Source: an uncultured Acidobacteriia bacterium
GTDB lineage: Bacteria; Acidobacteriota; Terriglobia; Bryobacterales; Bryobacteraceae
DNA length: 64,000 bases
Assembly (NCBI GenBank): GCA_903900705.1
Contig: CAIUOG010000126.1
Span: 1 to 64,000 of the forward strand
Direction: 5' to 3'
The notes under the pieces: generated by a model
Told to the model about the DNA's origin: nothing
Seen by the model: the letters and a program-made list of their open reading frames with translations, nothing else
The model's database searches: none
Position numbers and translations under genes: made by a program
In this document: positions 5,978 through 14,633 of the stretch, piece after piece
Layout: each line of letters opens with the position of its first letter
Position numbering within the stretch: position 1 is the first letter of the stretch

Positions 5978-6583
5978 TTACTTTCCGGCGCGAATCAGCG
6001 ACAGAAACTCATCCCGGGTTTCTTTTTTCTCCCGGAAAGCGCCCAGCATCGCGCTCGTCACCGTGGAGGATTGCTGTTTCTCCACGCCGCGCATCATCAT
6101 GCAGAAGTGCTGCGCCTCGGCCACCACCGCCACGCCCTGCGGGTCGAGAAGTTCCTGAATGCACTCCGCCACCTGCTGCGTCAGCCGTTCCTGAATCTGC
6201 AGACGGCGCGCGAACACGTCCACAATACGCGGCAGCTTGCTCAGCCCCACCACGCGGCTGTTGGCGATGTAGGCGATGTGCATCCGGCCGTAAAACGGCA
6301 GCATATGGTGTTCGCACATGCTGAAGAACTCGATGTCCTTCACGATCACCATCTCGTCATACTTCACTTCAAAAATGGCGTCGTTGACCAGCTTCTTAAT
6401 GTCGGTCGTATAGCCGGAAGTCAGAAAGCGCAGCGCCTTTTCCACGCGCTCCGGCGTGCGCTGCAGGCCCTGGCGTTCCGGGTCCTCCCCAATGGCTTCG
6501 AGGATGCCCGAAACCAGCGGCGCGATCGGTGCTGACGGCTTGCTCGGTTCCAGGACTTTGACGACTGCGCGCTTTCTATTCAT
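5978..6583 (-). CDS. folE: GTP cyclohydrolase I
   Basis: Converts GTP to 7,8-dihydroneopterin triphosphate, the first step of folate, tetrahydrobiopterin and 7-deazapurine synthesis. Family hallmarks are [15 protein letters not shown], the zinc-binding [10 protein letters not shown] and the second Cys region [12 protein letters not shown] near the C-terminus. With the ATG at 6583 the protein has 201 residues. A GTG at 6601 would overlap the queD stop as GTGA and add six residues; neither start has a clear ribosome site. It is the last gene of a tightly packed unit with two PTPS/QueD genes, which fits a shared pterin-type pathway. Confidence 0.95.
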
Positions 6584-6615
6584 AGGCTTCGGATATTTCA
6601 CGCTTCGGATATTTC
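6582..6615. repeat. 16-bp tandem duplication at the queD/folE junction
   Basis: The segment GCTTCGGATATTTCAC occurs twice in direct tandem across the end of the first queD-like gene and the beginning of folE. It creates the overlapping GTGA and the alternative folE start. Probably a slippage duplication; any role in translational coupling is speculative. Confidence 0.8.
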
Positions 6616-7026
6616 ACAGATGTTACGTTCCGTCTCCCAGATGCGAACCTTTTCAAGCCGGGGTCCGGCGTCGGGGAAAACCTCCGCCCAAACGGCCCGC
6701 AGGCGGCGGTCCACTTCAAAGGCCATGTTCTCCGTCGTTGGCACCACCAGCCGGAAGGCCTCAATCTCTTCATTCAGATTCCGGTACCGGAACGGCCGCA
6801 GAATCTGCGCCTCCGCCAGCCGGTCCAGCGCGAACAGATCCACCGCCCGGCCCGTCACCGGATCCACTTCCCCCCGCACCGTCAGTTCCACTTCGTAGTT
6901 ATGGCCGTGCCCGTTCGGGTTGTTGCATTTGCCGTAGATGGCCCGGTTCTCCGCGTCGCTCAGCTGGTGCGAGTGCAGCCGGTGGCTTGCGGCGAAGGTA
7001 TAGCGGCGGCTCAGGTGGACCGTCAT
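6598..7026 (-). CDS. 6-pyruvoyl-tetrahydropterin synthase / 6-carboxytetrahydropterin synthase family, Cys-containing paralogue
   Basis: A 142-residue PTPS/QueD fold. Zinc ligands His15, His40 and His42 are visible (FAASHRL and NGHGHNY), and the catalytic Cys is Cys34 in [13 protein letters not shown], much like animal [13 protein letters not shown] and a C-terminal ETERN segment complete the family pattern. It would act on dihydroneopterin triphosphate, the FolE product, giving either 6-pyruvoyl-tetrahydropterin or 6-carboxytetrahydropterin; the sequence alone does not settle which. Its start overlaps the stop of the neighbouring paralogue by 4 bp (ATGA), indicating translational coupling. 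Confidence 0.9.
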
Positions 7027-7436
7027 TCGCCCCGGTACTCCACAAACAACTCGTTCGTCTCATGGACGCGCACCGAAAACAGCCGCGCGCGCCCCGTCAA
7101 ATCGATATGCGGCGCCAGGCGATTCCAGATGTCGATGGCCATATTCTCCACCGTCGGCACAATCCGGTCGAACGGTTCCACCTCCCGGTTCAGCAGGCGG
7201 TGGTCATAAACACTCAGCACTCTCGCTTCCAGAATGTCCTTGAGATGCTTCAGGTCCAGAATCATGCCCGTGACCGGCTCCGGCGCGCCTTCAATGGCGA
7301 CCTCCACGATATAGTTATGGCCATGCCCCAGCGGGTTCGAAGCCGCGCCGTAGACCCGCTCATTCTCCTCATCGGAGAGCTCGGCGGAACGGCAAATGTG
7401 AGATGCGGAAAACTCTACCTTCTTGGAAATGATCAT
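7023..7436 (-). CDS. PTPS/QueD family paralogue lacking the catalytic Cys
   Basis: A 137-residue paralogue of the downstream gene. Zinc ligands His13, His38 and His40 are kept (SASHIC and LGHGHNY), as are PTVENMAIDIW and the C-terminal [13 protein letters not shown]. The position of the catalytic Cys is Ala32 (YGAASNPLGHGHNY), so ordinary PTPS/QueD chemistry is unlikely unless another residue, perhaps Cys15, stands in. A different pterin reaction or a structural role beside its paralogue is possible. First gene of the pterin operon; the promoter should be in the 53-bp divergent gap to the thioredoxin gene. Confidence 0.85.
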   Translation of the reverse strand: MIISKKVEFSASHICRSAELSDEENERVYGAASNPLGHGHNYIVEVAIEGAPEPVTGMILDLKHLKDILEARVLSVYDHRLLNREVEPFDRIVPTVENMAIDIWNRLAPHIDLTGRARLFSVRVHETNELFVEYRGE

Positions 7437-8008: not shown

Positions 8009-9455
8009 TCCGGCCGCGACGCAGCGCGTTCCGCTGCCGGAGGCCGCGAAGAAAAAGCTGATCGCCATCGTGGGGCCGAAGGGCTATCTGGATCGCCCGG
8101 AAGACCTGAGCCTCTACGAATACGATGGCAGCGTGGATAAGGCGCGCCCCGAAATGGTCGTCTTCCCCCGTACCACCGAAGACGTCTCCGCCATCGTCAA
8201 AGTGACGGCGGAATACGGCGTTCCCATCGTGGGACGCGGCGCGGGCACCGGGCTCAGCGGCGGGGCGATTCCCGTGGCGGGCGGCGTCACCATCGGCTTT
8301 TCGAGGATGAACAGGATCCTCGAAATCGACCTCGAAAACGAGCGCATGGTGGTGCAACCCGGCGTGGTGAACCTCGACATGTCCCTCGCCGTGCAGGCCA
8401 TGGGCTTCTTTTACGCGCCAGACCCCTCCAGCCAGCGCGCCTGCACCATCGGCGGCAACGTATCGGAAAACGCCGGCGGACCGCACACGCTCGCTTATGG
8501 CGTCACCACGAACCACGTCCTGGGCCTCGAATTCGTGCTGCCCGATGGTTCAGTCCATACGACCGGCGGCAAGGAACCGGACGCGCCCGGGCTCGACCTC
8601 GTCGGACTGCTGACCGGTTCGGAAGGCACTATGGTGCTGGTCACCAAGGTCATCGTGCGCCTGATGAAGACGCCCGAAAAGATCAAGACCATCCTCGTGA
8701 TCTACAATTCCCCGTCCGATTGCGCGGACACCATTGCGGACATCACCGCGCGCGGCATCACGCCCGTCGCGGTGGAAATGCTGGATGGCGAGATGCTGCG
8801 CATGGTGGAGGAAGCCACCCACGCGGGCTATCCGCTCGATGCCGCGGCGGTGCTGCTGATCGAACTGGAAGGCCTGACCGAAGCGGTGGAGGAACAGACC
8901 GGACAGATTCGCGAGGCCTGTGAGCGCTGTGGCGCGCGCGAGTTCCGCGTCGCCAAATCCGCCGAAGAACGCGACCTGCTCTGGAAGGGCCGGAAGAACG
9001 CGTTTGGCGCGGTAGGGCGCGTCAGCCCCTCCTATTACGTGCAGGATGGCGTGGTTCCGCGCACGCAGATTGCCCCGACCCTGCGCCATATCGCGGCAGT
9101 CGCAAAGAAACACAACCTGGGCATCAGCAACATCTTCCACGCGGGCGATGGCAATATGCACCCCATCATCCTGTTCAACCCGCATGTGCCGGGCGAGTTG
9201 GAACGCGCCAAAGCGGCTGGCGAGGAGATTCTCACCTACTGCATCGAAGTGGGCGGTTCCATCACCGGCGAGCACGGCGTCGGCATGGAGAAGAACGAAC
9301 TGATGAGCAAGCTGTTCAGCGCGGAATCGCTCGACTACATCGGGCGTTTCAAGACGCTGTTCGACCCGGCCGGACGGCTCAACCCCGGCAAAGTGCTGCC
9401 CACAGGCAAGGGCTGCCTCGAAATCCGGCAGCGCCCGGGTTCACCAGTCCTTTAA
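7989..9455 (+). CDS. glcD: FAD-binding oxidase, GlcD-like (glycolate/D-lactate oxidase family)
   Basis: A 488-residue flavoprotein with an N-terminal FAD_binding_4 (PCMH) domain, shown by PIVGRGAGTGLSGGAIPV and the TIGGNVSENAGG segment, and a C-terminal FAD-linked oxidase domain with HAGDGNMHP and GEHGVGMEKN. This is the architecture of the glycolate oxidase GlcD subunit and of D-lactate dehydrogenases; 2-hydroxy-acids are the expected substrates. No glcE or glcF is adjacent, so the exact substrate is open. The start at 7989 lies inside the end of the thioredoxin gene. It converges on csm5, overlapping it by 4 bp. Confidence 0.88.
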   Translation: MSSPFSDPAATQRVPLPEAAKKKLIAIVGPKGYLDRPEDLSLYEYDGSVDKARPEMVVFPRTTEDVSAIVKVTAEYGVPIVGRGAGTGLSGGAIPVAGGVTIGFSRMNRILEIDLENERMVVQPGVVNLDMSLAVQAMGFFYAPDPSSQRACTIGGNVSENAGGPHTLAYGVTTNHVLGLEFVLPDGSVHTTGGKEPDAPGLDLVGLLTGSEGTMVLVTKVIVRLMKTPEKIKTILVIYNSPSDCADTIADITARGITPVAVEMLDGEMLRMVEEATHAGYPLDAAAVLLIELEGLTEAVEEQTGQIREACERCGAREFRVAKSAEERDLLWKGRKNAFGAVGRVSPSYYVQDGVVPRTQIAPTLRHIAAVAKKHNLGISNIFHAGDGNMHPIILFNPHVPGELERAKAAGEEILTYCIEVGGSITGEHGVGMEKNELMSKLFSAESLDYIGRFKTLFDPAGRLNPGKVLPTGKGCLEIRQRPGSPVL

Positions 9456-10600
9456 CCGACCTGCAGCTCTACCCAACCGGGCAGGGCGGCGGGCTTGTTC
9501 TTGAGGAAGACCACGCGGCGGGTCTTCGGGAACGGCAGACCGCTCTGAATCGCCTGCTTGTAGAACGGCAGCATGGCGAGAATCTTGCGCTGGTCGGCAT
9601 CATCTCCGCCAATCGCGGCGGATTTGCTCAGGAAGCCCGCGCCCCAGCCAATCGCGACCAGGCATGAGCCGTTCGCTTTGGCGGCTTCGAGCCGGGTCTG
9701 CAGCGCGGCGACAGAAGCGCCCAGTTGTTCCAGACCGGCCCACTGCGCATAGCGGGCGTGCAGTTCCAGCTGTTTGGCGGCGTAGAGATTCGCCGCTTCG
9801 AACAGAGTCTTGTGCGTCACCGGCTGGCTCCAGCGCAGCGTCTGCCGGACCTCTTCGCGATTCAGAAAGTCATTCTCGCGCCAGACGCCTTCAAAGACGC
9901 TGCCGGGCGCGGCCATTTCCGCGAAGGTGGGCGTGGAATCATCCGGACGGCGACCGTCCACGCTTCCCCGCCCGGTCTGTTTCCAGCCAAGTGAAAACTG
10001 CTCGGGGCCCTTCGGAATCAGCGTGGAGAGGCGAAGCAGATAGACGCGGAAGTTCTCCCGCGTCTGCGCCGCGGAATCGCCGATGATGACGGCGCGCATG
10101 CGGTCCGAACCGCCCGCGCCGATGGTGTGGCGCTCCACGTCTTCCGCCGGGCGACGCGGCATGCGGTCGCCCGCCAGCTTTTCAGCGTGGGTATGGAGGG
10201 CGGTGGGCTTCAGTTTTGCGAAGACAAATGCCGTGCGCAGCGCGCCTTTGAGTGCCGCGCCAGGCAGAAACGGGCCCGCTTCACCGGAGGCGAAAGTGGG
10301 GATGCTGAGGCTTTCCGCCGGCGCGCTGTTGAAGTACGGCGTGTAGGCGGCGTCTTCAAACGGGATGCGGCGTTCCGCGTAGTTCTGGGCGAAGCCGCCC
10401 CAGGACGCGAAGTCGAGTTTGGTCGCTTTGCGGAGCTGCGTGAGGTAAGGATCGAGACGCGGCCCTTTCGCCAGCAGCCGGAAGATCTTCGTCTGGTTCA
10501 GGACGTTGACGGTATCGCGCCAGACCATGTAGTCGATGGGCGAGAGGCGATTGCCGTCGCCGACGAGCGTGGGGGTCAGGACTGTGGCCTGGTACTTCAT
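9452..10600 (-). CDS. csm5: Csm5-like RAMP protein of a type III-A-like CRISPR effector
   Basis: A 382-residue RAMP (Cas7-like) protein matching Csm5, the subunit that caps the crRNA 3' end in Csm complexes. Diagnostic pieces are LTPTLVGDGNRLSPIDY at the start, FLPGAALKGALRTAFV (about 130-145), the glycine-rich AIGWGAGFLSKS and the terminal FPKTRRVVFLKNKPAALPGWV. The start overlaps the csm4 stop by 4 bp (ATGA). Last gene of the operon; it ends in a 4-bp overlap with the convergent glcD gene, so nothing else of the operon lies downstream. Confidence 0.87.
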   Translation of the reverse strand: MKYQATVLTPTLVGDGNRLSPIDYMVWRDTVNVLNQTKIFRLLAKGPRLDPYLTQLRKATKLDFASWGGFAQNYAERRIPFEDAAYTPYFNSAPAESLSIPTFASGEAGPFLPGAALKGALRTAFVFAKLKPTALHTHAEKLAGDRMPRRPAEDVERHTIGAGGSDRMRAVIIGDSAAQTRENFRVYLLRLSTLIPKGPEQFSLGWKQTGRGSVDGRRPDDSTPTFAEMAAPGSVFEGVWRENDFLNREEVRQTLRWSQPVTHKTLFEAANLYAAKQLELHARYAQWAGLEQLGASVAALQTRLEAAKANGSCLVAIGWGAGFLSKSAAIGGDDADQRKILAMLPFYKQAIQSGLPFPKTRRVVFLKNKPAALPGWVELQVG

Positions 10601-11754
10601 TCCGCAACCTCAACAGGTGTTTCCGCTACAGGCTCTTCCGCTTCCACCACGACCGGTTCGGGCTCGGATTCGGGCTCCGGCTCGGGCTCAACCATTGACA
10701 CTTCCACCGGGGCTTCGGGTTCCGGAAGAGCTTCAGGTTCCACCGGAGTTTCCACCGCGACCGCCGGGAGCACGGGCGGCGTCACCGTGGGACGCGCGGG
10801 ATTCCGCACCAGAATTTCCATCGGCGCCGGGAAGTACAGCGCCACGCCGGAGCGGTACACCGGATGCGGGAAACCCTCGGGCGCGACGTCCACCGCCCGG
10901 CCCTTCAGCGTTTCCGCCGCCAGCACCGAACCCTCTTCCATCAGACGAACCTGTTTCTTGGCGCCCGCGCCGGCCGGACTATCCGTCCAGCCGCTGCGCA
11001 CCGCCGCCGAGTATTCCCCGCGGGACCAATCGACCACGTCGGTCTCATGCGGCGAGTAGGTCGAGAGCAGCCAGCAATAGCCTTCCGCGCCGGTGGGAGC
11101 AAACAGATGCGCGGCTTCCGAGAACTGCGGCTCGCTCGCGCGGCCCCAGCCGCGGGAGCGCTCCCCGCCGAACCCGGAATCCGCCAGCAGACGCAGAGCC
11201 GACTTCACGCGCGCTTCCCAGGTGGCGTCGGAACAGGAGAACACGCCCCACCAACCGGCGTTCGGCGCAAATTCCAAACAGGCCGTGCGGTGCGGTTCCA
11301 CCGCGCCATTCAGACGGTCCACCGCGGCGGCCGTCCGAACGGAAACACGGAACGGCGAGGCCGCACCCATGGGGAGCAGACACTCCGACTCGCCATCCAC
11401 CGCCCAGCGGGTCTCTTCCACCACGCCGGACTTCATGATTTCAAGCGGTACCAGCTTTGCGCCCTGGAGGTAGAGCCGGCCGGGATTCGAGGGCGGCCAG
11501 ACCGATTTCGGCGGCGGCGCCAGACGCGTCCGGCCCATAAACGGGAAGAGCGAACTGAAGCGGACCACCGGCTCGCTCGCGCGCGCCGTCACGTCCAGCC
11601 AGTCTTCCAGCCAGCCCAGCGCGCGCATGGCATGGGTGACGGCCGAGTACAGCTGGTCGCTGTGGTAAACCACATCGACCCGCTCCCGGTCACCCGCGTG
11701 ATGCCCCACGCGCCACGGACCCGTGGGCCGCAGCTTGACTTCAATCAGACTCAT
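10597..11754 (-). CDS. csm4: Csm4-like RAMP protein (Cas5 group) with an acidic C-terminal tail
   Basis: Csm4 binds the crRNA 5' handle and Cas10. Family features are the N-terminal RAMP strand with HSDQLYSAV, the glycine loop SGFGGERSRGWGR, VRLMEEGSVL and the closing HPVYRSGVALYFP. The domain ends near residue 317. Residues 318-385 are an added low-complexity tail of Glu/Pro/Val, with 18 Glu and only one Arg in 68 residues, not expected in Csm4. The start codon directly follows the csm3 stop (TAAATG) and the stop overlaps csm5, indicating tight coupling. A tail role in contacting the basic Csm2 arm is speculation. Confidence 0.87.
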   Translation of the reverse strand: MSLIEVKLRPTGPWRVGHHAGDRERVDVVYHSDQLYSAVTHAMRALGWLEDWLDVTARASEPVVRFSSLFPFMGRTRLAPPPKSVWPPSNPGRLYLQGAKLVPLEIMKSGVVEETRWAVDGESECLLPMGAASPFRVSVRTAAAVDRLNGAVEPHRTACLEFAPNAGWWGVFSCSDATWEARVKSALRLLADSGFGGERSRGWGRASEPQFSEAAHLFAPTGAEGYCWLLSTYSPHETDVVDWSRGEYSAAVRSGWTDSPAGAGAKKQVRLMEEGSVLAAETLKGRAVDVAPEGFPHPVYRSGVALYFPAPMEILVRNPARPTVTPPVLPAVAVETPVEPEALPEPEAPVEVSMVEPEPEPESEPEPVVVEAEEPVAETPVEVAE

Positions 11755-12588
11755 TTAAGCCGCGATCAGGCCCTCGCCTGCTTCCCGCACTTTGCTCTGC
11801 AGTCCGGCCAGATCGGCGCCCGAGGCGATTTCCTTCTCCGCCGCGCCCGCCGCATAGAAATCCTGCCCGCGCCAGACCAGCTTGAGGTCGCTGAAGCTGA
11901 CCCGACCGCTGCCACGCGAACCACCGCCGCCCAGCGTATCGTCTTCCAGCAGCCGGAGACCCTGCACCAGCACACCAGGCAGAACAGCGTCTTCGGGACA
12001 GAGAATGTCGAGCACGAAACGGACTTTGAAGCGCGCGCCGGCCGGCACGCGTTCGAGCGTGCGGGGGTTGGCCTGCGAGGTGATGCGGTCGATGGCGTTC
12101 TCGCTCTTCACTTCCGTGAGTTCGTCGTCAAGCGTTTCCTTCATCTGCGGCGTGATGCTTTCCGCGACGAGGGGCGCATCGAAGACGCTGAGGCGCGCCG
12201 GGGTGGCGTGGTTGCTGTCGAGATCACCGCCGCCGACCTTTTCCATGCGGCCCGGGCTGCGGCCGAACAGGATGCAGATTTCGTCATCCGGACGGTCGCT
12301 CTGGTGAATGCGGACTTCCTGGCCTTTGCGCTTCGAAAGATAGACGAGTTCCGAGGGCACCGCCGCGCCGGTGGCCTGCTCCAGCAGGGCCCGGATGCGT
12401 CCGCGCAGCGTGCTGCCGGGGACGTAGGGACGCCCGTGCGAATCCTTCACGACCGGATTATCCGCGCCGCCAATTTCCAGCGAGCCTTTGCCCGCGCCGA
12501 TGTGCAGCCCGGTCTCGCAGCGCAGTTCGCCTTCGAGAATCAGCTTGCCGATTAGCTTCAGTTCCGTTTGTGCAGTGTGAGCGCTCAT
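11755..12588 (-). CDS. csm3: Csm3-like backbone RAMP protein with the RNA-cleaving Asp retained
   Basis: A 277-residue Csm3 (Cas7 family), the repeated backbone subunit that binds the crRNA and cuts target RNA at 6-nt steps in characterised Csm complexes. The N-terminus follows the family closely: ETGLHIGAG, IGGADNPVVKD and YVPGSTLRGRIR. The Asp known to cleave RNA (Asp33 in Streptococcus thermophilus Csm3) corresponds to Asp43. The glycine loop near the C-terminus is TLGGGGSRGSGRV. The protein is longer than typical Csm3 (about 220 aa). It lies 22 bp downstream of csm2. Target-RNA cleavage therefore looks intact. Confidence 0.93.
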   Translation of the reverse strand: MSAHTAQTELKLIGKLILEGELRCETGLHIGAGKGSLEIGGADNPVVKDSHGRPYVPGSTLRGRIRALLEQATGAAVPSELVYLSKRKGQEVRIHQSDRPDDEICILFGRSPGRMEKVGGGDLDSNHATPARLSVFDAPLVAESITPQMKETLDDELTEVKSENAIDRITSQANPRTLERVPAGARFKVRFVLDILCPEDAVLPGVLVQGLRLLEDDTLGGGGSRGSGRVSFSDLKLVWRGQDFYAAGAAEKEIASGADLAGLQSKVREAGEGLIAA

Positions 12589-12610
12589 TCGCGTCCTTCA
12601 AAAATCCTGA

Positions 12611-13195
12611 TTATTCGTTGTATGCCACAATCGCTTCGAACAGATCGCGGAAGCGTTCATAGCCCCGGGCGTCGTTCTTGCGGGTGACCTGAAGCAGCAG
12701 CCGTTCCAGCTGGTCGAGGCTGCGCAAACCATGCCGCGCGATGGTGTAGGCCAGGCGGGCGCGGAGCATGACGAACTCGTGCTGGCGTTCGGTTTCCGGA
12801 GCGCGGGTGGCGCGGCGCACCGCGTTGTAGAGGCGGCGAAGCTGGCTGCGGGTACCGGAATCCATGTCGCGCATGCGGCTGACGACGATGTGGGCCTGGT
12901 TATCGAGATAGAGGCTGTCGCCGATGAGCTTTTCAAGTTCGATCTCGGGCGGACCGTCGAAGCGGCGTTCGCCACCCCGATCACCACCACGCTCCCCACC
13001 CCGATCACCACCGGGACGATCACCACCACGGTCGCCCCCGGGACGGCGATCACCGCCGGGGCGTCCGCCACGATCTCCACCGGGACGGTCACCACCCGGA
13101 CGGCCACCGCCTGGACGATCTCCACCGGGCCGACCGCCGCCTTCGCGGGGAGGACGATTTTCGCGGGTTGCCTGTTGCTTCTGCTCTTCAGCCAT
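12611..13195 (-). CDS. csm2: Csm2-like small subunit with an Arg/Gly/Asp-rich N-terminal extension
   Basis: Residues about 83-194 form an all-helical domain like Csm2, the small subunit lining the crRNA-target groove; TRSQLRRLYNAVRR and MLRARLAYTIARHG resemble its conserved helices. Before it lies an unusual ~65-residue low-complexity arm (about 11-78) of GGDRPGG/GGDRGG units with about 18 Arg and 12 acidic residues, certainly disordered and RGG-box-like. Ordinary Csm2 is about 120-160 aa without such an arm. It sits between cas10 and csm3 with 22-bp gaps on both sides, the normal csm2 position. The arm may add RNA binding or condensation; that is inference. Confidence 0.8.
   Translation of the reverse strand: MAEEQKQQATRENRPPREGGGRPGGDRPGGGRPGGDRPGGDRGGRPGGDRRPGGDRGGDRPGGDRGGERGGDRGGERRFDGPPEIELEKLIGDSLYLDNQAHIVVSRMRDMDSGTRSQLRRLYNAVRRATRAPETERQHEFVMLRARLAYTIARHGLRSLDQLERLLLQVTRKNDARGYERFRDLFEAIVAYNE
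12965..13141 (-). repeat. Tandem GGDRPGG/GGDRGG-coding repeats in csm2
   Basis: Degenerate 9-21 bp units encode residues 19-77 of the Csm2-like protein as GRPGGDRPGG, GGDRGG and GGERGG. Repeat number may vary between strains because the DNA is slippage-prone. Confidence 0.85.
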
Positions 13196-13217
13196 GTGTG
13201 TCTCTGATCCTCTGGCG

Positions 13218-14633
13218 CTAGTCTTCTGCGAGTCTCGCCCATTCGAGCGCCACTAAGCCTTCCGGCCTCAACTTCAGCCGGCCCTTTTGACCCCGGCCGG
13301 TAATTTCCTTCACCAGATGCGAACGCAGTTTCTGGAATTCGCGCTCTTTGCGGCTCGCCACGCGGGCGAAGCGTCGCTGGAAGCGGATGGCGCGCGCCAT
13401 GAGACGTTCCGGATCGGCCGGTCCGCCGGGCGTTTCCGCCTTCTTATACAGGTTACGCAACTGGCCGAGAAAGTGTTTCCCGCCGCGGAACTCTTCGTTC
13501 AGCTGGACGACGGTGTCTTTGAGCTCGGAGGCGTCGGCGAGTTGTTTCCATTCGAGCACCTGCCCGAGCATGTAGAAGCAGTCCTTGTCGGAGGACTTGG
13601 CGGTTTCAAGGTCGCGGGCGCTTTCCTGCCAGACGCGGGCGAGGGTGGAGTTGGGGTCACCCAGCGTCATTGACATCGTGATGGTCTTGGCCTCGCCGCC
13701 CGGCAGTTCCTTCAGATTCTCCTCGGCGAAAAGGGCGAAGACGCGCTGCAGTTCGCGGGCGAAACCGGCGAGGGCGTCCCAGGCGCCACAGACGACGAAG
13801 TCAGCGGTGTCGGCGCGGAGGACGGTCACGCGCTGGAAGTAGTCCCCCTGAGAGCAGAGCAGTTCGATTTCACCGGCGAGGAACTGCTTGTAGAGCATGG
13901 ACAACTGCACATGCTCTTCGACGCTCTGGGCACGGCGGATGCGATTGCCGAAATCATCGATTTCGCCGCGCAGCATGCCCCAGAGCTTTTCGCCCTTCGC
14001 GCGTTTGGCGAGTTCCTTCACGGAGGCGATGGCCTCGCCGTTGCGGGCGGCATGGCGGGTGAGCGCGATGTTATCGAGGCCGGCCTGGCGACCGAGGTCC
14101 CAGCGGAACTGGCCGCCTTCGGGGGCGATCAGGGAGGCGAAGTCGAAACTGAAGCCGATGCCGGCGGCATCACGGAGCCCGCGGGGCGTGGAGTCCGCCG
14201 CAGGCGTGGCGGGGACGAAGGGATCGAAGAAGCCCGCGCCCGGAATGGCTTTGAGCGAGGCCTTCATGCCTTCGTGGAGGCGCTTGCGAACGACGGTCCA
14301 GTCGCCCAGGTTTTCGGTGGAACTGAAGGCGACGCGCAGAGTTCCGTCGGTTAATCCGGAAAGCGCGGCGCTGGCGCGGGCTAAAAAGTCGGCGGCGGCG
14401 GTGGCTTTCGAACTATCCGGCAGAATTACCAGAAAACGCCCGCCGCCGGAGGAGCCGAGCATAAGCGGAGGCAACTGCAGTTCGGCCAGCAGGGCGCGGG
14501 GGATGACTTCACCCAGCAGCGCCAGCCACCAGAGGCGCGCTTCAAACGCACGATTATCTTTGTCCGCAGGCGCCCGGAGGAGAAAGTCATCCGCTCCGAG
14601 CAGTCTGCCCTGTAAAAGGATCTGCGCTGACAT
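13218..14633 (-). CDS. cas10: Cas10/Csm1-like protein, short, without HD domain and with a lost cyclase motif
   Basis: A 471-residue large subunit, against about 750-850 for usual Csm1. It begins directly in the first palm domain (LGSSGGGRFLVILP, 59-72); there is no N-terminal HD nuclease. No Cys-based zinc ribbon is visible in the linker. The second palm is recognisable from MLRGEIDDFG (220-229, in place of DxDNLG) and from VLRADTADFVVCGAWD (271-286), which aligns with the YSGGDD...GxWD segment, so GGDD is replaced by DTAD (275-278). A helical D4-like C-terminus follows (about 365-471). It thus appears to have lost both ssDNase and cyclic-oligoadenylate synthesis and to serve as a scaffold. 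First gene of the operon. Confidence 0.8.
   Translation of the reverse strand: MSAQILLQGRLLGADDFLLRAPADKDNRAFEARLWWLALLGEVIPRALLAELQLPPLMLGSSGGGRFLVILPDSSKATAAADFLARASAALSGLTDGTLRVAFSSTENLGDWTVVRKRLHEGMKASLKAIPGAGFFDPFVPATPAADSTPRGLRDAAGIGFSFDFASLIAPEGGQFRWDLGRQAGLDNIALTRHAARNGEAIASVKELAKRAKGEKLWGMLRGEIDDFGNRIRRAQSVEEHVQLSMLYKQFLAGEIELLCSQGDYFQRVTVLRADTADFVVCGAWDALAGFARELQRVFALFAEENLKELPGGEAKTITMSMTLGDPNSTLARVWQESARDLETAKSSDKDCFYMLGQVLEWKQLADASELKDTVVQLNEEFRGGKHFLGQLRNLYKKAETPGGPADPERLMARAIRFQRRFARVASRKEREFQKLRSHLVKEITGRGQKGRLKLRPEGLVALEWARLAED

Follow-up and report, generated by a model that had tools for sequence, protein, structure and literature searches.

The stretch of DNA examined here (the window; 64,000 nucleotides of contig CAIUOG010000126.1, assembly GCA_903900705.1, from an uncultured member of the acidobacterial family Bryobacteraceae) carries on its minus strand, from position 14633 to 9452, a csm operon with the genes cas10, csm2, csm3, csm4 and csm5 in transcription order, separated by 22, 22, 0 and −4 nucleotides (Table 1). 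The five families and their order match those of the type III-A (Csm) effector of CRISPR (clustered regularly interspaced short palindromic repeats) systems, and the original prediction, made from the sequence alone, had described them as such an operon with a Cas10 deprived of both its output activities, DNA cutting and cyclic-nucleotide signalling. The layout was confirmed by family profiles, with Csm2, Csm3, Csm4 and Csm5 passing their NCBIfam cut-offs at 42.8, 187.9, 143.2 and 54 bits, respectively. The loss of both outputs is real in the window; the larger point, which the original prediction missed, is that this is a core operon of the family, apparently vertically inherited, accompanied by a lone cas6 gene and with no array found.

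A shortened Cas10 and conserved RNA-side subunits

The Cas10 of the window matched the Csm1 family TIGR02578 with an E-value of 3.5e-35 and a score of 121.9 bits, under the cut-off of 170, and passed the Pfam cut-off for the second palm domain (32.4 versus 27). In a profile–profile alignment it corresponded to residues 280–826 of ordinary Cas10 with a probability of 99.9, and alignments to Protein Data Bank (PDB) entries started at Csm1 residues 253–273. The HD domain and the part following it are absent, the region between the palm domains is shortened and neither an HD nor an HN dipeptide occurs anywhere in the protein. The alignments bore out the earlier description of a 471-residue protein beginning with the first palm domain and carrying DTAD and GEIDDFG in place of the catalytic motifs, and the proposed structure-based comparison with Csm1 placed the gene within Cas10. 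An AlphaFold model (six sequences) had a mean predicted local distance difference test score of 41.8. A gene unrelated to Cas10, or chance reading frames, was ruled out by the family profiles and by the PDB and profile–profile alignments; since Cas10 was also matched in 17 of the 18 other sampled genomes of the window's genus, with zero internal stops in the matches, chance or assembly error can be excluded.

Table 1. Coordinates of the csm genes and of their diagnostic residues in the window
Feature	Coordinates	Strand	Description or basis
cas10/csm1 homologue, 471 aa	13218..14633	-	first palm domain, shortened middle, second palm domain, C-terminal part; without HD domain
DTAD in the GGDD slot (Cas10 residues 275-278)	13800..13811	-	PDB alignments of GGDD columns
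GEIDDFG (Cas10 residues 223-229), degenerate palm2 DxD (EID)	13947..13967	-	first Asp replaced by Glu, second Asp kept
csm2, 194 aa	12611..13195	-	N-terminal part R/G/P/D-rich, probably disordered; core highly conserved
Csm2 Arg120, aligned with target-cleavage Arg (SeCsm2 R49)	12836..12838	-	alignment to solved structures
csm3 (Cas7), 277 aa	11755..12588	-	open reading frame and family profiles
Csm3 Asp43, aligned with RNase-loop Asp (SeCsm3 D32)	12460..12462	-	alignment to solved structures
csm4 (Cas5), 385 aa	10597..11754	-	acidic proline-rich C-terminal tail; open reading frame and family profiles
csm5 (Cas7-like cap), 382 aa	9452..10600	-	open reading frame and family profiles

The subunits concerned with RNA retain their key residues, in agreement with the claim that Csm3, Csm4 and Csm5 had kept their motifs. 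The Asp of the Csm3 RNase loop is described as the residue of target-RNA cleavage (PMC10289348; PMC10497410), and its counterpart Asp43 is kept in 96 of 97 family rows, the other row being a gap. Arg120 of Csm2, aligned with an Arg to which PMC10289348 assigns a role in target cleavage, is likewise kept in 96/97 rows, and all 97 have the Tyr and Arg of the helix that follows in Csm2. His297 of Csm4 (93/95 rows) aligns with the His stacked against the 5′ nucleotide of the CRISPR RNA (crRNA), whereas the Tyr stacking at guide position −2 in the known complex aligns with His155 (stacking roles as given in PMC10289348). With no HD domain, no GGDD motif and intact RNA-side subunits, the complex of the window is expected to be unable to cut DNA or to produce cyclic nucleotides, which supports the earlier deduction to that effect.

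Two further features concern Csm2 and Csm4. The stretch preceding the Csm2 core measures 46–217 residues in 83 loci (upper bounds, counted from the earliest start codon available) and has a median content of 71% R/G/P/E/D, while seven ordinary Csm2 proteins total only 135–152 residues; this extension is reminiscent of RGG RNA-binding regions. Csm4 ends in a net-acidic, proline-rich tail (10597–10851 in the window), which exceeds 60 residues in 20 of 81 loci. Both parts could bind RNA or partner proteins.

Distribution, inheritance and the order of losses

Csm3 matches were found in 184 of 200 family genomes, including 136 of the 141 of good quality, and in 69 of 76 genera. Among the 16 genomes that gave no match, G023 carries cas10 at the end of a contig; no sampled member of genera g8 (five genomes) and g90 (two genomes) gave a Csm3 match, and G121 has neither a Csm3 nor a Cas6 match. 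In a sample of 101 genomes of relatives Cas10 was found in 57, comprising 57/61 from the window's family and 0/40 others (24 of the 40 not itemised). Across a phylum sample of 396 genomes, Csm3 was matched in 38, three within the family (the window's genome included) and 35 outside it, where the best identity among long matches was 46% and higher values occurred only in short pieces. The search for the same gene order in other genomes of the family, which had been suggested as a check, was successful: the order is common to the 57 loci of the relatives sample wherever the genes fall on the contig (csm2 in 56, csm3 in 56, csm4 in 54 and csm5 in 54), and after the addition of 41 loci all five genes were present in 91 of 98, the remaining seven having one to four.

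In a tree of Csm2–Csm5 covering 95 loci of the family and 11 of the outgroup, built by a quick method that left 28 of 103 inner branches open, the genus labels required 14 changes for 15 genera, which is the minimum, compared with a mean of 43.8 for shuffled labels. Genus g73 was not exclusive, as g70 is nested inside it. Judged by this agreement with genus labels rather than with a species tree, inheritance of the operon looks vertical. Type III effectors usually have a patchy distribution and go together with arrays and with DNA cutting or cyclic-nucleotide signalling; from these sequence comparisons, the present operon is a near-universal, fixed core element of the family and not a swapped defence cassette, a core-gene distribution that sets it apart from type III-A. 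This is more striking than the double loss in Cas10.

The two losses proved to be separate, because the HD domain is absent from all 96 family copies read and the cyclase motif is intact in most other genera. A profile built on the HD region of ordinary Cas10 proteins matched none of the 96 Cas10 frames of the family and none of 7061 frames of at least 60 residues across 98 family loci. The same profile detected 11 of 12 outgroup III-A loci (seven of these 11 also having been used to build it), the miss being L167 with a Cas10 frame of 346 residues. These outgroup loci, ordinary III-A systems from the same phylum, have GGDD in 12/12 Cas10, and nine of them, whose frame also contains the short HD motif, measure 822–929 residues. 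Of the family rows on the tree, the cyclase motif can be read in 93; a GGDD-type motif is kept in 68 of these (60 GGDD, seven GGDE and one GSDD), corresponding to 68 of the 75 rows from other genera and none of the 18 from the window's genus. Within this genus the losses take 12 different forms, the first catalytic Asp being replaced by Ala (13), Ser (4) or Gly (1). The motif columns there lie between the 65th and 97th variability (entropy) percentile of the protein, versus the 7th–24th elsewhere, and the Phe that follows is invariant.

Outside the window's genus seven rows have lost the motif, five of them as GGND, and an additional loss was seen in L095, a locus not on the tree. The tree group adjoining the genus has GGND in three of four members (g7, g23 and g41) and GGDD in g15, and at least six state changes are needed for the motif over the tree; intact GGDD, GGND and fully lost forms coexist within the family. 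On this evidence the whole family lacks the HD domain, and loss of the cyclase site followed later, in the window's genus. The original prediction was right that both outputs are gone from the Cas10 of the window; it is corrected in that the two losses are separate.

Purifying selection was estimated as the Nei–Gojobori ratio of nonsynonymous to synonymous substitution rates (dN/dS) in nine within-genus pairs; the values are approximate, since several pairs approach saturation at synonymous sites. For cas10 the ratio is 0.04–0.13 in eight of the nine pairs, the ninth being saturated, for csm3 it is 0–0.09, and for all five genes it is at most 0.17 within the genus. The Cas10 matches of the 57 genomes contain no internal stops. 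Conservation of the DTAD form with values below 1 across strains had been named beforehand as support for a working system, and the purifying selection in the genus argues for one. Of the signs that were to speak against the prediction, relatives with an intact GGDD do exist, while the accompanying decay, in the form of stops within Cas10 matches or a high dN/dS in the genus, is not seen; a local double loss by decay was rejected on account of the low dN/dS and the family-wide distribution.

Guides, Cas6 and signalling effectors

The cas6 gene is not linked to the csm operon of the window, which again differs from type III-A, and stands alone elsewhere in the genome (G000:C117, with Pfam support). 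Of the 200 family genomes, 173 have a Cas6 match (126 among the 141 of good quality), and His248 is invariant among 17 orthologues. A sample of 149 genomes from the phylum gave 25 matches besides the window's genome, with E-values of 1e-32 or weaker. No Cas6 was found in nine of the 16 genomes that lack a Csm3 match, or in 18 of the 184 that have one (p = 2e-5), a comparison confounded by incomplete drafts.

A repeat scan detected no CRISPR array within the window (the same scan found arrays in five of eight cas1 loci). For the two repeat types covered, the window's genome gave no match to the CAATCC array pattern and 23 matches to the GTTTC pattern compared with 28 for its control. Cas1 was not found in this genome; of 25 family genomes sampled, 13 have it. 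The CAATCC pattern has at least one match in 33 of 61 family genomes (the reversed control in two), and at least three on one strand in 12. No CRISPRs were detected in the Bryobacteraceae strain F-183, as reported in PMC8759368. The absence of an array from the window and of a detected Cas1 from its genome are further differences from type III-A.

Across 57 csm loci the repeat scan revealed regular repeats in L052, L078, L079, L088 and L096; L098 contains runs of N. The repeats just upstream of cas10 at L079:9046-9395 are exact tandem copies of about 70 nucleotides, and those at L078:3328-3597 exact tandem copies of 54 nucleotides; both are nearly whole-unit repeats and not CRISPR-like. No array was seen near the operon or near 17 lone cas6 genes. 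Arrays do lie near cas6 paralogues in L120 and L127, the latter an ordinary system and the former probably so by its shared genes. A guide RNA gene beside the operon was considered and set aside: space is scarce, with 79 nucleotides upstream to the stop codon of the next gene, csm5 overlaps a facing gene, Rfam gave no match at gathering scores within the window, and no array-like repeats occur near the window's operon. A guide gene beside cas6 was discarded as well, since, across 20 loci (17 carrying the lone Cas6 and three a distant paralogue), nothing was shared by more than three apart from cas6 and a frame lying within it on the opposite strand.

Genome G113 carries, together with the core operon, a second and ordinary III-A system (L127:315-8314), with an 842-residue Cas10 bearing HD and GGDD, Csm2–Csm5, an NE0113 CARF protein, Cas6 and an array, and offers a useful contrast of both systems in one cell; G028 and G044 probably also carry such a system, by their shared genes. 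Searches for signalling effectors covered the Csx1_CARF, NE0113 and Csm6_HEPN families among the CARF, SAVED and related proteins. Csx1_CARF was found in 0 of 61 family genomes (control detected in two of 14), the NE0113 CARF in 11 of 101 genomes, the window's not among them, and Csm6_HEPN in 0 of 61, a search whose control was equally silent.

The surroundings of the operon vary. Among the other 56 loci, within the stretches taken, one shares its upstream neighbour and one its downstream neighbours; a single downstream gene, which we take by resemblance to be a GspA-type ATPase, is common to 14 of 57 loci, all in genera other than the window's. Further away in the window lie tandem repeats with a spacing of mostly 18 nucleotides (1903–2313) and, on the minus strand at 5978–7436, what are presumably a folE-like gene and, beside it, two adjacent QueD/PTPS-like paralogues.

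Proposed function and relation to known systems

The reading that we favour, and regard as probable, is that the operon encodes a type III-A-derived Csm complex serving in the window's genus as a guide-dependent ribonuclease directed at RNA only. A filament of Csm3 and Csm2 would hold the guide RNA and cut the paired target RNA, Csm4 and the remnant of Cas10 would cap the 5′ end of the guide and Csm5 its 3′ end, Cas10 would be retained as a structural part, and the separately encoded Cas6 would probably make or trim the guide; complex assembly, RNA cleavage and the partnership with Cas6 are all steps that we infer. Guide-directed RNA cleavage is the activity expected to remain because the cleavage residues are kept and because of an experimental precedent, in which, as described in PMC10497410, mutation of the DNase or cyclase of Csm had no noticeable effect on RNA knock-down and Csm3 D33A abolished it. 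The operon most likely works like the RNA-cutting half of a III-A system alone, an immune machine that, as these findings suggest, is kept for another or a very reduced RNA-guided task.

Several observations weigh against this reading. The cyclase motif is intact in most other genera, and the family-wide role may include signalling. Within the window's genus itself, the Csm2 cleavage Arg is Gly in one member (L056, genome G016). The high conservation of the Csm2 core is not special, as ordinary III-A outgroups show the same rank order, with the Csm2 core ahead of Csm3 there as well (0.869 versus 0.816; 0.701 versus 0.660), and was dropped as a sign of domestication. Some Cas6 matches are weak (down to an E-value of 1.7e-4) and may be paralogues, the association between Cas6 and Csm3 weakens in good genomes (no Cas6 found in two of five without a Csm3 match versus 13 of 136 with one, p = 0.09), and in genus g96 all three sampled genomes (G127, G166 and G188) have Csm3 and no Cas6 match. 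Since neither a guide RNA nor an array was found, guide dependence itself is something that we infer.

Other explanations fit parts of these data. The complex might be a reduced defence system supplied in trans with crRNAs from CRISPR arrays at other places in the genome, a proposal made for type III-G in PMC12669027; the retention of Cas6, and the Cas1 and CAATCC signals counted above in part of the family, would agree with this. We nevertheless consider it unlikely, as the window's own genome lacks matches to both Cas1 and CAATCC and has GTTTC at control level, as Csm and Cas6 are near-universal whereas array signals are patchy, and as G113, and probably G028 and G044, hold an ordinary III-A system, in G113 with its own Cas6 and array. 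The long, charged and glycine-rich Csm2 N-terminus, in comparison with the short ordinary Csm2, could instead point to a non-catalytic RNA-binding platform in which cleavage no longer matters and, for instance, an RGG-like region is the working part; the near-invariance of both the cleavage Asp and the cleavage Arg makes this very improbable. The loss of two catalytic functions and the drift of the GGDD slot in the genus are what a decaying relic of III-A immunity, merely not yet deleted, would also display, a notion that scarcely deserves credence and is already largely refuted by the low dN/dS of all five genes, the uninterrupted Cas10 matches, the conserved RNA-cleavage residues and the presence of the operon in 184/200 genomes.

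An RNA-only ribonuclease of this kind leads to a bolder proposal, which is possible although we would not rely on it: that the family domesticated a III-A effector as a housekeeping RNA-guided ribonuclease, in which Cas6 makes guides from non-CRISPR transcripts, RNAs of the cell or of resident elements are cut, and the other outputs have been dropped in the window's genus. If true, this would be a prokaryotic analogue of RNA interference, one that operates without adaptive immunity. In one genus, naturally occurring copies have RNA cleavage as the sole predicted output left to them, which makes it testable whether CRISPR effectors can become machines of cellular RNA regulation.

Compared with type III-A, the system of the window has csm2–csm5, the aligned and conserved Csm3 Asp, Csm2 Arg and Csm4 guide-end His, and a Cas6, but lacks the HD domain, the GGDD motif and, within the window, the linked array that define a working III-A system, and its Cas10 is shortened in the middle and scores below the equivalog cut-off. 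The original prediction had recommended comparison with the rare type III variants, and the system falls outside III-G, III-H and III-I as they are described in PMC12669027. Like types III-G and III-H it has an inactivated Cas10 cyclase site and no adaptation genes, and for III-G no array has so far been found; theirs is an apparently active HD domain without conserved Cas7 aspartates and with predicted DNA cutting, whereas here the division of labour is reversed, HD being lost and the Cas7 Asp kept. Type III-I shares a Cas10 without cyclase function, conserved Cas7 aspartates and predicted RNA cleavage, and differs in its fused Cas7-11i and in a Cas10 without detectable sequence similarity, as opposed to five separate csm genes. 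The main text of that paper, as distinct from its supplements, makes no mention of Acidobacteri-, Bryobacter- or Solibacter-, and PMC11742911 reports other type III variants from Acidobacteriota, stating that its ten predicted systems all have arrays. No description of this system was found in the open-licence literature, which omits most subscription papers, and within that literature the statement that no described III-A form lacks both outputs was not contradicted. There is also a functional likeness with Csm knock-down in human cells, where RNA cleavage is independent of DNase and cyclase (as described in PMC10497410); that complex was transplanted and supplied with guides, whereas the operon of the window is natural and fixed.

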